A DNA stretch of 64,000 nucleotides from NCBI GenBank assembly GCA_003214465.1, contig QCLO01000007.1, positions 1-64,000 on the forward strand. The letters run 5' to 3'. Shown here in pieces: positions 45,915 through 53,010 of the stretch. The notes below the pieces were generated by a model. That model made no database searches. It was given only the letters and a program-made list of their open reading frames with translations, and was not told the DNA's origin. Each line of letters opens with the position of its first letter. Position 1 is the first letter of the stretch. The position numbers and the translations under genes were made by a program. This stretch comes from Acidimicrobiales bacterium AG-414-N20 (GTDB taxonomy: Bacteria; Actinomycetota; Acidimicrobiia; Acidimicrobiales; MedAcidi-G1).

Positions 45915-48821
45915 TTATTCGATATCGCTACGACTAATCGCTCTTTCATCTGTTCCCAAATAACTAGATACAACTATTGGATCGTTTCGTACTTTAGATG
46001 GCTCACCTTCTGAGATTACGGTTCCTGCTTCTAAGCAATAAACGCGATCAGAAAGTGCCATTATCATAGGCATATCATGCTCTATTACTAACATTGACGC
46101 ACCAAGTTCTTTTTGAATTTGCTTAAGAAGTGGTCCAAATGCCTCAGTTTCTCTTTGAGCAATTCCCGCAGTTGGTTCATCAAGGCAGAGCATTTTCGCA
46201 TCTAAAGCTAAAAGGCCAGCTAATTCAACTATTCTCCGTGTACCTGTAGAAAGTTCAGCTATAAAAGAGTCTGCGTATCTCCCTAGTCCAAGAAAGTCAA
46301 TTAATTCGTTAGCTTGATTAGTTTTACTCATTTCATTACGTGTGGCATTCGGAAGAGATAATGCGGTTGGTAAAAGACGTGCACGATTTCTTGCTTCAAG
46401 AGCTACTTGGACAGTTTCTCTAACAGTTAACTCAGGAAACAGTTGAGCGGCTTGAAAGGTTCTACCCAAACCTTTACGTGCTCGTTTCGCAGGTGTTAAT
46501 TGCGTGACATCGTCTCCTAATAGAGTGATGTTTCCGGTTGAAGGGACATAACCACCTATGGCATTCATAAGTGTTGATTTACCAGCACCATTAGTCCCGA
46601 TTAGCCCCACGACTTCTCCAGAATTTACCTTTATATCTACAGCATTTACTGCAATTAAGCCTCCGTAAGAAACTGAAATATTTTTCGTTTCCAAAATAGT
46701 TCCTGATATTGGGTGGGAATCAATATTTTTCTTTAGTGAAGTAGGCGGTGTTGTAGTCGTTTTAACCGGAGTAGTTTCGAGTTTTTGTTCAGCCCAATTC
46801 AATAAAGAATTTCGTGCTGAATAAGCAATTTGTACGAGTCCACCTGGGAAATATAAAAGAAGTACGAGAAGTCCAATGCTTGATGTGAAAAGAGGAACAA
46901 GATCATTTTCTGGCCATATTGCTGGTAATCCTATAACCCACATGGATCCAATGACTGGGCCCATTAGTGTTCCAAGACCACCAATGACAACCATTGAGAC
47001 AACCTTAAGTGAATTGCTAATCATGAAGAATCGTTCGGTGAAAGGGATGTTTTGAACTAAGCCTCCTAGGAGTGAACCTCCTAGTCCTGCTAAACACCCT
47101 GCCAAAGAAAAAGCAATTAATTTAGTTCTATGGGGAACTACAGTGTACGCAGCAGCAGTATTTTCATTTTCTCTAACAGCAATTATTGATCTACCCACAC
47201 CGCTTTTTCTAATTTTGTTTATTAGGAAAAGTGTTATAACCAGGGCTCCAAGACAGAGAAAATAATAGGCTCTTTGGCTAGCTAATTCGATTGGCCCGAG
47301 ACTTCCGCGGCGAAACGGAACACTTTGGTTGTATCCACCGCTTAAAACAGGACGTCTATAAATGTATTGTGATGCTGCTAGAGCAAAAGCAAAAGTTGAA
47401 ACTGCTAAGAGGAGACCTTTGACTCTTAATGCTCCTAGTCCAATGATTGCAGCTGAGATACCGGCGACCAGGCTTGCTAAAAGCATTGAAACTAAAAATG
47501 GAAATTTAGGTAATGAGATTGAAAAAAGATGCCATTTTTCGCCGAAACCAACTCCGAAATCTAATCCGCGATTAAATCCAGCAGCTGCAAGTGCTCCAAT
47601 ACCGGCAAAAGCCATTTGACTAAGAGATAGTTGACCCGCCCATCCCGTAACAACAGTAAGTGAAATGGCACATATTGCAAATGCCAGAACACTTGCGTAG
47701 AGAAGGTGTCGGGAAGGCAATGTAACTATAAATGGCAGAACAATGGCAAAAATAAATAACACCGTAAGAGTTAGGGAAGACAAATTCCTAACCCACCAAA
47801 ATTGGTTAAGTCTTTCTGGAATGGGTTTTCTGCGTGGGCTGAAAGAAAAAGAAGTTTCTTCTGCAGTCGAAGATCTACTTTGGAATGCGACTGCAATTGC
47901 CACTACTAAGAAAAGTATGAAATCTATTAGGCCTACTTGATCCAGGAAAACGAATTGCACATGAGCTTGAGCAATACCTATCGCTATTCCTGCAATTAAA
48001 GCGCGGGGGAATGAATACATACCAGCTATAACCGCAGCTGCTAAAGCTCTGGTCATAGTGTTTGGCCCGAGATTTGTTATTCCTGTTAGGGATCCTCTGC
48101 TTCCTGATAGAAGAAGAAGAGAAACACTTGAAAGTGTGCCAGCTACAGTCCAAACAAAAAGTGAAACTACTTTCGGTTTTATACCAGATAATTTTGCAAG
48201 GTCAGCGTTATTTGCAGAGGCTTGCACAGTTTGTCCAAAAATAGTTTTATTTAAAAACCAAGAAAGAGCCAGTGTTAGAAGGGGTACAACGATAAGGATT
48301 GTTAATTTGGGGCCAGTAATTCGAAGACCAAAAACGTCGTTCCATTTTCCAGAAATAGGAACTGGAAATCTGACTCCTCTTTTACTTTCAATATCTGGAT
48401 ACGCGGCCAAAACGGCTTGCATTAGCTGAGCTATTCCAATTGTTGCAACTAAAACTATTACTCTTGGGGCGGTGAATAGTCGACGAATTATGGCAAGTTC
48501 TATAATTGATCCAACTAAAGTTCCCACTAGTAGAGCTATTGGTAAAGCTATCCAATAAGGAAAGCCATAATTGATGACCATTAGTGCCATAAGCCCTACA
48601 GCAGGGAGCCCCATATTGCCTACTGCAAGATTTATTACACGTGTAGATCTATAAATTAGTACTATTCCGAGAGCCAGTAAGCCGAAAACCATTCCATTAA
48701 TTAATCCATCAAACCAAAGTTGGCGGGTGGTCCATACAGCGAGTATTTGTGGTGACTCGGATAGAACAATTTCTAGGGATCTAGTCACATCAACCGCCTT
48801 CATCTCCAAGGAAAACGGCAC
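45915..48821 (-). CDS. Fused branched-chain amino acid-type ABC transporter: LivH-LivM-LivG in one chain
   Basis: A 968-residue protein joining two LIV-type permeases and one ATPase. LivH-like permease: about 35-310, with NGMVFGLLALGIVLIYR and ITGPKLTILIVVPLL. LivM-like permease: about 345-670, with TGWAGQLSLSQMAFAGIGAL and LGGLVQNIPFTERFF. LivG-like ATPase: about 705-955, Walker A LIGTNGAGKSTLMNA, signature LSTGTRRIVELAG, Walker B LCLDEPTAG. The three-part fusion is uncommon. It is coupled to the MFS-LivF gene (32-base overlap at the longest start; GTG 48788 or ATG 48803 are alternatives). No substrate-binding protein lies in the window, so the ligand is unknown. Confidence 0.85.
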   Translation of the reverse strand: MPFSLEMKAVDVTRSLEIVLSESPQILAVWTTRQLWFDGLINGMVFGLLALGIVLIYRSTRVINLAVGNMGLPAVGLMALMVINYGFPYWIALPIALLVGTLVGSIIELAIIRRLFTAPRVIVLVATIGIAQLMQAVLAAYPDIESKRGVRFPVPISGKWNDVFGLRITGPKLTILIVVPLLTLALSWFLNKTIFGQTVQASANNADLAKLSGIKPKVVSLFVWTVAGTLSSVSLLLLSGSRGSLTGITNLGPNTMTRALAAAVIAGMYSFPRALIAGIAIGIAQAHVQFVFLDQVGLIDFILFLVVAIAVAFQSRSSTAEETSFSFSPRRKPIPERLNQFWWVRNLSSLTLTVLFIFAIVLPFIVTLPSRHLLYASVLAFAICAISLTVVTGWAGQLSLSQMAFAGIGALAAAGFNRGLDFGVGFGEKWHLFSISLPKFPFLVSMLLASLVAGISAAIIGLGALRVKGLLLAVSTFAFALAASQYIYRRPVLSGGYNQSVPFRRGSLGPIELASQRAYYFLCLGALVITLFLINKIRKSGVGRSIIAVRENENTAAAYTVVPHRTKLIAFSLAGCLAGLGGSLLGGLVQNIPFTERFFMISNSLKVVSMVVIGGLGTLMGPVIGSMWVIGLPAIWPENDLVPLFTSSIGLLVLLLYFPGGLVQIAYSARNSLLNWAEQKLETTPVKTTTTPPTSLKKNIDSHPISGTILETKNISVSYGGLIAVNAVDIKVNSGEVVGLIGTNGAGKSTLMNAIGGYVPSTGNITLLGDDVTQLTPAKRARKGLGRTFQAAQLFPELTVRETVQVALEARNRARLLPTALSLPNATRNEMSKTNQANELIDFLGLGRYADSFIAELSTGTRRIVELAGLLALDAKMLCLDEPTAGIAQRETEAFGPLLKQIQKELGASMLVIEHDMPMIMALSDRVYCLEAGTVISEGEPSKVRNDPIVVSSYLGTDERAISRSDIE

Positions 48822-51063
48822 GCGCTAAATCATCACGTTCGACGAGTTCTTGAGCCGAACCTTCAAAGCGAACTTGTCCTTTTTCTAAGAAAACCGCTCT
48901 ATTAGCAATTGAAAGGGCAATATTTAATGATTGTTCTACGACAATCATTGTTTGACCTTTCTCTTGAAGGCGTTCGATAATATTTAAGAGGTCTTGAACG
49001 ACTGTTGGGGCTAGACCAAGAGAAAGTTCATCAATAAGAAGAACTTCTGGTTCATGAAGTAGAACGCGCCCAAGTGAGAGCATTTGTTGTTGACCACCTG
49101 ATAGTGACCCTGCTTTTTGTTTTTGTAGTTTTTGTAGTTCCGGGAAAAGCTCAAATACTTTTTCAATTCTTTCTTTAACATCTTCTTTATTGTCTTTATG
49201 AATGTAAGCACCCATAATTAGATTTTGATTAACCGTCATGTCACTAAACACCCCTGATCCTCCAGGGAGTTGTTGGATTCCTAACTTTGCTCGTCTTTCT
49301 GGAGAGGCATAAGTGATTGTTTGACCATTAAGTCGCACTACACCTCTTTTTGGAACTCCTAAACCACTAATGACTCTAAGGAGAGTTGACTTTCCAGCCC
49401 CATTTGTTCCTAAAAGTGCGAGTGTTTCACCTTTATTTACTTCTAGTGAAATATCGAAAAGAATTTGTACTGTGCCATAAGAGAAATCAACGTTATTTAC
49501 TTGTAGTGCGGGGATTGTTTCGTTTGTGTTAGATCTACGACGTTGTTCTTCTTGTTCTTCAAATAATTCTTGAACGTTTAATGAAAGGTCATTTCTTAGA
49601 AATTTGGCACCTCGGTACATTATCCAACCGCCAATTACTGAAGAGGGAAGAGTAAGGACTATAACGGTGATACGCGGTCCCCAAGTATCTGTGAAAAGAA
49701 GAGAAATCAGTCCTCCACCTGTTGCACCTATAAAAAAGATGTAGAGAGTTACTAAAGCTGAACCAGTGCCACGTAATCGGTATGGAACGATTGCTTGCAA
49801 AATAGGACTTACCATTGCAAAAGAAGCAGTTAGGAGAATCAGACTAGGTATTCCCGCTATCACAAATAAGGCAACATTGGGCATAAAAAATTGAACTGGT
49901 TTGAGTATTCCAGCTAAAGCTATTCCTAAGCCAATTAAATGAAGAGTTCGAGTAGGGTTTTCTCTCCAAAGACGATCAAATTTTGGACCTACCCATATAA
50001 GAGCTATAACAGCAAAAACTCCTCCTGCTGTTCCACTAATTCCTCTTTCAAATGCATCTAATCCAAATTCGTCCTCCAGAAAAAGATTTTCTAAAACAGG
50101 TGCCGTAAAAAGACCAAATCCAAGTGCGCTAAAAGCGACAACGACTGTTTTAACTGTTTTTATTTGTAGCAATCGTGAAAATGCTGCTTCCATTGAGATA
50201 GGTAAAGGTTTGTCTTCAATGAAAGATTCTCCTAGAACGTCAGTTTTTTCCCATTTTCCTCTTTCTGGTTCTTTTAAGAAAAACGAATATAAAGCAATAA
50301 TTACAACAGGTATTCCGAGAAGGTAGTAACACCATCTCCAACCATCAATTCCATCTGAGCCATTGGCTGCAAGGGCTATCGCTCCTACTAGAACTGGGCT
50401 GGTGACTCTCAGTCCATTATTAATGATCCCAGTTAATGAACCGAGTCGTCCTCGTATGCCGATCGGGTAAGTATCAGCAATTACGGAACTGTGAACTGGG
50501 ATTGTGCTTGCTTTTGCAATTCCAACTCCAAACCTTGCCCAGAAGAACATAAATGCATTAACTGCAATTCCTGATAGGAAAACCATTCCTGCAAAAATTG
50601 AACTGGCCCAGCCAATTATCGGAACTCTTCTTAATCGGTCTGCCATCCAACCCATTGGAAGAGAACCCAATACAACAAAGGCCGCTGATGAACTAGCTAT
50701 GAAAGTAATTGTTCCATCACTAACATTAAATGTGTCTCTTATATCTGGAGCTAAGACATTTATAGCTGCAGTTTGAAGTTCCTCTAGCCCTGATAAAAGC
50801 GCGAGAGTAAAAAATGTTGCTGCTCCGCCGCCGAGTCGCAGACCTTTTTTAAAGCTAATTCCTTCTGACTTAACGCCTGGTAAAAGGTCATCTGGAAAAA
50901 TTATTTCTGATTCTTTTTGTTTTGCTCGACGCTCCTCCTCATCAATAACCACTGAAGTTAATGAAGACAGTTTGGTTTGATCTCCATTAACGGGGTCTGA
51001 AGATTTTGAAGAATCGTTTTTCATTTTCAGCCGTTTCTGTAAAGTTTTATTTTTCCACGTCAT
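48790..51063 (-). CDS. MFS transporter fused to a LivF-type ABC ATPase
   Basis: A 757-residue chimera. Residues 1-75 are polar; about 75-505 form a 12-helix major-facilitator domain with GWMADRLRRVPIIGWAS (the MFS A-motif), GIAKASTIPVHSSVIADTY and IPSLILLTASFAMVSPILQ. Residues about 515-757 are a LivF-like ATPase: Walker A ALLGTNGAGKSTLLRV, LSGGQQQMLSLGRVL signature, Walker B VLLIDELSLGLAP. The fusion of an MFS carrier to LivF, next to LivH-LivM-LivG, is not a standard LIV layout. Whether the MFS part transports, or is a regulatory/anchoring partner, cannot be told. Start ATG 51063, with GGGAT upstream. Confidence 0.85.
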   Translation of the reverse strand: MTWKNKTLQKRLKMKNDSSKSSDPVNGDQTKLSSLTSVVIDEEERRAKQKESEIIFPDDLLPGVKSEGISFKKGLRLGGGAATFFTLALLSGLEELQTAAINVLAPDIRDTFNVSDGTITFIASSSAAFVVLGSLPMGWMADRLRRVPIIGWASSIFAGMVFLSGIAVNAFMFFWARFGVGIAKASTIPVHSSVIADTYPIGIRGRLGSLTGIINNGLRVTSPVLVGAIALAANGSDGIDGWRWCYYLLGIPVVIIALYSFFLKEPERGKWEKTDVLGESFIEDKPLPISMEAAFSRLLQIKTVKTVVVAFSALGFGLFTAPVLENLFLEDEFGLDAFERGISGTAGGVFAVIALIWVGPKFDRLWRENPTRTLHLIGLGIALAGILKPVQFFMPNVALFVIAGIPSLILLTASFAMVSPILQAIVPYRLRGTGSALVTLYIFFIGATGGGLISLLFTDTWGPRITVIVLTLPSSVIGGWIMYRGAKFLRNDLSLNVQELFEEQEEQRRRSNTNETIPALQVNNVDFSYGTVQILFDISLEVNKGETLALLGTNGAGKSTLLRVISGLGVPKRGVVRLNGQTITYASPERRAKLGIQQLPGGSGVFSDMTVNQNLIMGAYIHKDNKEDVKERIEKVFELFPELQKLQKQKAGSLSGGQQQMLSLGRVLLHEPEVLLIDELSLGLAPTVVQDLLNIIERLQEKGQTMIVVEQSLNIALSIANRAVFLEKGQVRFEGSAQELVERDDLARAVFLGDEGG

Positions 51064-51094: not shown

Positions 51095-52021
51095 TTACGA
51101 ATTTGTTTCTTTATAGATCGTTTCAGCAACAATTAGGTCCCAACTGGCAAGGCCAACCGATTTGAAAAGTGTTATAGCTTCTGCGGAACTTCTACCTACT
51201 TTTTTCTGAATCAGTTGTGAAAAGTCTCCTATTATCTGGTCGAACGACCAACTTTCTTCAATTTCGGCACTTATGAGTTCCCCAGCTTCTTCTTTAGCAG
51301 CCGTTCTATGATCTACAAAAATTTCCGCATTTTGTATTAACTTTGAATCTGCTTCTTTTTGTTCATCAGAAAAAGATCCTATTAAATTCAGATGAGCTCC
51401 CGGTTTAACTGATTCAGTCGGAATTACTGGTGTTTTAGAACTTGTACATGAGCAAACTAAATCACAGGCAGCAGTTTCTTTAGGGGGACTTATATTAATT
51501 TTTAGATCTTTTATATTTAAAGAATTAATAAATTTTTCAGCTGATTCCAGTGTTCTTCCAGAAATAAAAATTTGTTCAATTTCTGGGCGAACTGAAAGCA
51601 TTGCTTCAATATGACTACGTGCTTGGACTCCTGTACCAAAAATTCCTAAATTTTTGACTTTTTCTTTTGCAAGTATTTCTGTTGCAACTGCTGATGCTGC
51701 AGGTGTTCTAAGCGTGGTTAAAGCCGAACCATCAAAAGTAGCTTTGGGAACACCGGTTTTTTTGTCGCAATAAAGATAGAAGCCATGAACAAGAGGAAGA
51801 TCAATAGTTGGATTTTGCGACATTACTGTGACTAATTTTATTCCTATACCAGTTGGGGAAATCGCGGGCATCAAGAGAAAATCTTCTCCTGGGTTTAGAG
51901 GAATATGTTCTCTAGGAATAGGTTCGTCGTTATTTACACCACTATTTTGCAGAGCAGAAATAGTGTTTTTGATACCAAATGAAAAAATTTCATCAGCGGA
52001 GTAGTGACGAATTTCTTTCAT
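51095..52021 (-). CDS. Ornithine cyclodeaminase/mu-crystallin family reductase
   Basis: A 308-residue NAD(P)-binding protein with LRTPAASAVATEILAKEKVKN, the nucleotide loop LGIFGTGVQARSHIEAML and ICSCT-type DLVCSCTSSKTPVI. The family includes ornithine cyclodeaminase and delta-1-pyrroline-2-carboxylate reductase. Because it overlaps a proline-racemase-family gene by 4 bases, pyrroline-2-carboxylate reductase in hydroxyproline breakdown is the better guess; this is inferred. Confidence 0.82.
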   Translation of the reverse strand: MKEIRHYSADEIFSFGIKNTISALQNSGVNNDEPIPREHIPLNPGEDFLLMPAISPTGIGIKLVTVMSQNPTIDLPLVHGFYLYCDKKTGVPKATFDGSALTTLRTPAASAVATEILAKEKVKNLGIFGTGVQARSHIEAMLSVRPEIEQIFISGRTLESAEKFINSLNIKDLKINISPPKETAACDLVCSCTSSKTPVIPTESVKPGAHLNLIGSFSDEQKEADSKLIQNAEIFVDHRTAAKEEAGELISAEIEESWSFDQIIGDFSQLIQKKVGRSSAEAITLFKSVGLASWDLIVAETIYKETNS

Positions 52022-53010
52022 TTCAGTTTAAATCCCATGCCGATTGGGTCACGCGGGTCGAGATAGAAAGAGCTCTTACTACAGCAATAAGCAGATCCTT
52101 CAATAGATGTAATTATGTCAGTTTCTTTTGTTTCGATTACTTGCCCTTTGAACATTCCACCTGCAATTCCATGGTTAAAAAAAGGTTCATTAGTTTTTAT
52201 AAGGTTTTTTTCATGAAGCAAGGCAAGTCGTGCGGAAGTACCTGAACCACATGGCGATCTGTCGACTTGTCCATCTGCAAAAATGGTTATATTGCGTTGT
52301 CTTAGAGGTTTTTCCTCCAGAGTTTCATAAAAGATTGAACCGTATATTCCTGACAGTCTTCTGTCTGAAGGATGTTCAGCTAACTTCAGATTTTGAGTTT
52401 TCGATTTAATCTCTTTACTGATTTCAATTAATTTGTTTAAGTCTTTTGAATTTGTATTTAAACCTAACTGATTAGTTTCGATTGAAGCATAAAAAGCCCC
52501 TCCAAAAGATACGTCTAAAATTATTGGTCCAAATGCCGTATCTATTTTTACTTCTTTAGCGCTTACAAAAGAAGGAACATTAATGAAAGTGACACTTTCG
52601 ACTTTTCCATTAAGTATTTTGGCTTTTGTAAATAGTCTTCCAGAAGGCACGTCAATCACGACTTCAAGATGATCTGTTTTTGATTTAATAAACCCGCTAT
52701 CTATTGCCCAAGTCACCAATGCAATTGTTCCATGTCCACATGCAGTACTAAATCCGTCTGAATGAAAGAAAACAACTCCTAAATCTCCACCTGAATCATC
52801 GGGGGGAACAATAAAACCGCCGTACATGTCGGCATGTCCTCTAGGTTCATGGACTAAGAATTTTCGAAGATCGTCAAGGTTTTCTTCTGCCCATGATCGA
52901 CGTTCGATGACAGTTGATCCTTCCATCGGACCCGCATCAACTATTCTGAATGGCTCGCCAGCTGTGTGGTAGTCACAACTTTCAATTGATGATCCTGATT
53001 CTAAATCCAT
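52018..53010 (-). CDS. Proline racemase family protein (hydroxyproline epimerase or dehydratase)
   Basis: A 330-residue enzyme of the proline racemase superfamily. The first catalytic Cys is in GFSTACGHGTIALVTW (about 85-100) and the second in DRSPCGSGTSARLALLHE (about 251-268). A Cys/Cys pair is typical of racemases and 4-hydroxyproline epimerases; trans-3-hydroxyproline dehydratases usually have a non-Cys at one site. The overlapping reductase gene, however, fits a dehydratase pathway, so the exact reaction is uncertain. Not related by operon to the downstream HD gene, which is divergent. Confidence 0.83.
   Translation of the reverse strand: MDLESGSSIESCDYHTAGEPFRIVDAGPMEGSTVIERRSWAEENLDDLRKFLVHEPRGHADMYGGFIVPPDDSGGDLGVVFFHSDGFSTACGHGTIALVTWAIDSGFIKSKTDHLEVVIDVPSGRLFTKAKILNGKVESVTFINVPSFVSAKEVKIDTAFGPIILDVSFGGAFYASIETNQLGLNTNSKDLNKLIEISKEIKSKTQNLKLAEHPSDRRLSGIYGSIFYETLEEKPLRQRNITIFADGQVDRSPCGSGTSARLALLHEKNLIKTNEPFFNHGIAGGMFKGQVIETKETDIITSIEGSAYCCSKSSFYLDPRDPIGMGFKLK

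Follow-up and report, generated by a model that had tools for sequence, protein, structure and literature searches.

The ABC and MFS superfamilies both rank among the largest groups of transporters and draw on different energy sources. Among the former, the LIV/HAAT importers (LivKHMGF; UrtABCDE) are closest to the system considered here: like them, it combines two BPD_transp_2 domains with LivF- and LivG-type ATPases, and most of its relatives have a LIV-type binding protein. It departs from them in that LivH, LivM and LivG are fused and LivF carries an MFS domain; further, the binding protein is unlinked in the clade of the locus under study, LivG has the signature LSTGT, and NCBIfam equivalog cut-offs are not reached. 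As in MFS carriers, the MFS region comprises a full-length PF07690 domain with motif A, a TM1 acid and a TM4 arginine, but unlike them it is fused to an ABC ATPase, and the nearest unfused relatives that we found are only ~25% identical to it.

Parallels are also suggested by several other systems. Sensor-kinase-MFS fusions, listed as TC 2.A.1.34 (PMC3924187), likewise join an MFS carrier to a soluble energy- or signal-handling domain, although the partner is a kinase there, whereas here it is the ABC ATPase of a different transporter. The ECF transporters provide a formal analogue, in which a separate membrane protein works with a dedicated ABC engine; no ECF S-component or T-component was found in our system, whose permeases are of the PF02653 type and whose relatives retain binding proteins. 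In Rhodococcus, CamABCD (ABC) and CamM (MFS), which function in the re-uptake of cholate metabolites (PMC8399759), place an ABC and an MFS transporter in one catabolic pathway; these are, however, separate transporters, each for a different metabolite.

No published description of an MFS-LivF fusion was found in the literature searched, which was open access only and as such is weak evidence of absence, and an entry for this architecture may exist in TCDB or InterPro. The parts themselves are known, and we file their combination, an MFS with a LIV importer, as a new variant of the LIV-type importers. A conserved covalent ABC-MFS link, under strong selection in many actinobacteria and missing from several sister lineages, raises the question of whether a primary pump and a secondary carrier can act together as a single machine. 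On a practical level, if annotation names such genes only as “MFS transporter” or only as “ABC ATPase”, the substrates assigned to them in actinobacteria of the sea and soil can be wrong.

Domain architecture of the locus

The window, that is, the whole 64,000-nucleotide stretch analyzed from Acidimicrobiales bacterium AG-414-N20 (contig QCLO01000007.1), contains the transporter genes on its minus strand, where the longest open frames run over 45915-48821 (968 aa) and 48790-51063 (757 aa) and overlap. An earlier note, made from the sequence alone, had described a two-gene layout in which LivH, LivM and LivG form one polypeptide and LivF is fused to an MFS domain, and Pfam searches bear out all of this. 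The first frame encodes two BPD_transp_2 domains (PF02653), the LivH-like (47904..48713) and LivM-like (46935..47690) permeases, followed by an ABC_tran domain (PF00005), the LivG-like ATPase (46167..46646). The second combines a full-length MFS_1 domain (PF07690; 49717..50802; profile positions 2-346 of 347, E 2.4e-32) with the ABC_tran domain of the LivF-type ATPase (48805..49509), the two being connected by an acidic linker (49507..49617), which a low-confidence model predicts to be helical. The MFS-LivF gene (48790..51024) most likely starts at the ATG at 51024, giving 744 aa, and not at the alternative ATG at 51063, since the extra 13 codons of the longer form contain an in-frame TGA in five congeners. 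For the LivH-LivM-LivG gene (45915..48803), which overlaps the end of the MFS-LivF gene, the ATG at 48803 is the most likely start, with an alternative GTG at 48821. Two further same-strand genes lie upstream, at a spacing of 31 bp or overlapping: an OCD/mu-crystallin-family, Pyr2C-reductase-like gene (51095..52021), 31 bp before the longer MFS-LivF start, and a proline-racemase-family gene (52018..53010).

Neither window protein reaches any of the NCBIfam LivF, LivG, LivH or Urt equivalog cut-offs; the closest partial hits are to LivG and UrtD for the ATPase of the LivHMG protein, and to UrtE and LivF for that of MFS-LivF. As in the LIV/HAAT importers, there is a LivF/LivG pair of ATPases with Walker A and B motifs, the LivG signature being degenerate. 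LivF keeps the Walker A lysine (K545), the LSGGQ signature (S642-G644) and the Walker B residues D665-E666, and has a glutamine (Gln698) at the switch position, the residue typical of LivF. In LivG, all seven aligned rows show LSTGT where LSGGQ would be expected, and the pair is thus asymmetric in its signature and switch positions. An AlphaFold model of MFS-LivF built on ten sequences is of moderate quality (mean pLDDT 67.5, pTM 0.57); its ATPase half matches the Thermotoga structure 1ji0 at 40% identity, and one long helix, modeled with low confidence, extends from the end of the MFS domain into the LivF linker. The corresponding model of the LivHMG protein (pLDDT 43.5) is unusable for contacts with MFS-LivF.

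The earlier note had pointed to the ion-coupling residues of the MFS domain as worth checking, and we scored such hallmark positions over 31 diverse fusions, with residues of MFS-LivF counted from the ATG at 51024. The motif A aspartate and arginines and the TM1 acid are kept in nearly all of them: E82 of the TM1 [D/E]81-E82 pair is present in 29 of 31 fusions, D129 of motif A in 30, and R130 and R133 in every one. R164 in TM4 is found in 29/31, and D184 and R191 in loop 4-5, along with P414 and R418 in the second half of the domain, are invariant (31/31). These are positions typical of conformational switching and coupling in MFS proteins, and motif A, the TM1 acid and the TM4 arginine are retained among sequences down to 28% identity. 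Further, dN/dS between congeners is 0.02-0.04 in the MFS domain, as against 0.03-0.06 in LivF and 0.035-0.042 in LivHM; the MFS half is under strong purifying selection, about as tight as that on the importer core. Hydropathy analysis recovers nine strong segments in the MFS domain, and the helices of the low-confidence model are compatible with 12. No NCBIfam subfamily cut-off is reached by this domain, the best weak matches being TIGR00893 (2A0114) and TIGR00895 (2A0115), from the galactonate/anion and aromatic-acid symporter groups. On the whole, judging from its sequence, the carrier looks intact.

Distribution and history of the MFS-LivF fusion

Unbroken MFS-LivF proteins are found at 92-97% identity within the genus and at 67-77% in sister genera, and MedAcidi-G1 (L053) likewise carries one. 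Other Acidimicrobiia, Yinghuangia soli (L063) and a megareplicon of Embleya have the fusion at 52-57% identity; its range takes in other classes of Actinomycetota and two Streptomycetaceae. Distribution was sampled within Actinomycetota, plus plasmids, and the class and phylum samples were searched with a profile built from 31 fusions. In the class sample, this profile matched in 57 of 198 genomes, nearly always over the full length, and in the phylum sample it matched in 21 of 397 at a looser threshold; two of the latter (G055 and G365) match in one domain only, leaving the full-length fusion in 19/397, i.e., 18 besides that of the window. G365 encodes a solo MFS of the fused-MFS family, in this one genome. 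Among the 5,000 best-scoring plasmid records, a single one, that of Embleya, was matched with at least 80% query coverage.

The earlier note had held that the fusion would fall if two genes had been joined by a sequencing error or if homologues were split, and had proposed looking for it elsewhere in Acidimicrobiia; it proved to be unsplit in dozens of independent genomes. An annotation or assembly artefact is accordingly next to impossible, given that the same unbroken frame recurs in many independently assembled genomes, including the single-contig genomes G042 and G038 and the Embleya megareplicon, and the MFS-LivF fusion is confirmed as a conserved feature. A contig filed under a Terriglobia/Acidobacteriae MAG (L050; JAKUNG010000004.1) encodes proteins 99-100% identical to those of the window and looks misbinned or misnamed.

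The fusion comes in two layouts that share the same five modules: type I, that of the window, has MFS-LivF followed by LivHM-LivG, and type II has LivHM followed by MFS-LivF-LivG. There are also sister loci with the same ABC parts but without the MFS, its absence being confirmed with a profile of the fused MFS. Since such MFS-less loci and the solo MFS of G365 both exist, the MFS is a fifth module that the system can do without. When LivF, LivG and LivHM are concatenated, the resulting tree intermixes loci with and without the MFS in each of its halves, and in a tree of MFS domains the fused versions of types I and II group together, apart from the unfused ones, with moderate support (0.83). 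One old fusion followed by several losses is the simplest reading of these trees, and the MFS may alternatively have been gained by module transfer.

Two observations on the composition of individual loci are of note. Giant single chains of 1,700-1,900 aa, with the order LivHM-MFS-LivF-LivG, were considered and rejected: in L082 the N-terminal part, read directly, is a high-GC out-of-frame translation, and tblastn coordinates place LivHM in another frame in L082, L083 and L085. L060, L061 and L062 have additional sequence between LivM and LivG, up to ~150 residues long and with many hydrophobic segments, that is absent from the window protein.

Possible roles of the MFS domain

Taking these observations together, we propose, with about an even chance of being right, that the locus encodes a LIV importer (branched-chain amino acid/urea type) fed by a binding protein and co-assembled with an MFS secondary carrier that is intact and handles the same substrates or related ones. 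The four core parts of the ABC transporter would be contributed by two chains, LivH-LivM-LivG and LivF, with LivH and LivM forming the pore and LivG and LivF hydrolyzing ATP, and the substrate would be delivered by a family-specific binding protein, whose gene, in the clade of the window, would lie at another place in the genome. The MFS bundle, borne on the N-terminus of LivF, would thereby be held beside the importer by a tether that probably lies on the cytoplasmic side, since an even number of helices would leave both ends of the MFS inside. Most likely it would then give this compound, or one linked to it in metabolism, a second path by ion coupling or exchange, for example, for uptake at high supply or for the release or exchange of a product. 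The assembly into one complex, the direction of import, the service by an unlinked binding protein, and the activity and role of the carrier are what we infer in this proposal. That the MFS is optional, that its carrier residues are kept and that the ABC set is retained together favor an added carrier over a replaced part.

Being optional, the MFS might also serve some purpose other than transporting the same substrate. One such possibility, which we regard as unlikely though deserving of consideration, is that the MFS is an inert scaffold or a regulator, anchoring LivF, or sensing a ligand and gating the importer, while transporting nothing itself. In its favor, a structural role requires no substrate, and close relatives with all the ABC parts dispense with the MFS. 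However, a mere anchor is not expected to keep motif A, the TM1 acid and the TM4 arginine over such divergence, and the omega of the MFS is as low as that of the permease; these features are in better agreement with a co-assembled secondary carrier.

A more far-reaching, and improbable, alternative is that ATP hydrolysis by LivF and LivG directly drives the MFS, making it primary active. The two ATPases would then supply energy to the tethered MFS as well as to the LIV pore, or would gate the MFS through their ATP cycle, a version that we hold to be equally improbable. The covalent MFS-LivF link in both layouts speaks for such coupling, as may the long helix running into the LivF linker, modeled though it is with low confidence. 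Against it, LivH and LivM, the normal partners of these ATPases, are always present, and we know of no coupling-helix interface for an MFS. If true, an ATP-driven or ATP-gated MFS would be a real hybrid of two large transporter superfamilies.

Binding proteins and neighboring enzymes

A search with a profile made from the binding proteins found beside relatives' loci recovered none near the window locus, and none near the type I relatives of the family fetched with flank (L050, L052-L055, L058, L070-L072). Of the 25 MFS-bearing loci outside the family that have sufficient flank, 23 have a binding protein within ~3 kb, the exceptions being L060 and L062; inside the family, the type II loci with sufficient flank, L087 and L088, have an adjacent one. 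The MFS-less sister loci mostly have an adjacent binding protein too, and the presence of the MFS and that of the binding protein are therefore independent. These searches indicate that the missing neighbor is a derived trait of the window's clade and not a property of the system: the absence of an adjacent binding protein, remarked upon in the earlier note, holds at the window locus but does not extend to the system as a whole.

These data bear on the idea that the MFS takes over substrate capture from the binding protein, in the manner of the ECF S-components. The lack of a binding protein adjoining the window's system would fit such a replacement, but we consider it very improbable and have set it aside, given the neighbors in most MFS-bearing loci outside the family and in the type II loci within it, and the three proteins of the same family encoded elsewhere in the window's own genome. 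The latter came to light on checking, as had been suggested, for orphan binding proteins: three strong members, on C29 (E 2.6e-77), C5 (5.3e-73) and C17 (2.9e-47), none of which has a liv permease next to it in the sequence recovered. They are candidates for serving the window transporter in trans. Alternatively, they may serve two other liv loci of this genome (C20 and C6), which also have no PF13458 neighbor; with both of these unpaired, the genome 85% complete and the C29 protein at a contig end, their assignment is not unique.

Certain binding proteins have unusual architectures. In L130:7969-11358 (-), L126:1-3225 (+) and L129:7732-10158 (-), different kinds of binding protein are fused in one frame: two versions, of 1130 and 1074 aa, are triple fusions of PF13458, Bmp/PnrA (PF02608) and the MFS-LIV-type binding domain, and an 809-aa version has the last two only. 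The C29 copy of this fused protein in the window's own genome is cut at the contig start. The C17 protein (L125:8538-10352, -) is a 604-aa family member with a LysM domain (PF01476) and is possibly tethered to the cell wall. The C5 protein (L124:4501-8067, -) is encoded directly upstream of a methylmalonyl-CoA-mutase-type set (MM_CoA_mutase, B12-binding, MeaB).

With respect to the substrate, the racemase-family protein upstream of the fusion has a cysteine at both active-site positions (TACGHGT, DRSPCGSGT), a combination typical of ProR/HypE enzymes, the dehydratases having Cys-Thr (PMC4364671). Its best NCBIfam hit, trans-3-hydroxyproline dehydratase (T3LHyp dehydratase), was rejected both on these residues and on a score of 294 against a cut-off of 540, and the gene is better described as a racemase/epimerase. 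Together with the P2C-reductase-like gene, it hints weakly at proline-type substrates. All through the genus, the pair adjoins the fusion; in g3 and g4, two further genera, the racemase is in most cases 4-12 kb upstream of it and on the same strand, and in G035 the interval between racemase and fusion contains an acyl-CoA dehydrogenase and a PaaK-like AMP-binding enzyme. In two other genera of the family, g2 and g6, the racemase is retained in places where, for the most part, a full-length type I fusion was not observed, and this weakens the racemase gene as proof of substrate. Other loci have different neighbors (P450, PhyH, FMN dehydrogenase, aldolase), and no one substrate can thus be tied to the system as a whole. 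With an omega of 0.10-0.17, the genes for the racemase and the reductase evolve several-fold faster than the transporter genes beside them (0.02-0.06).
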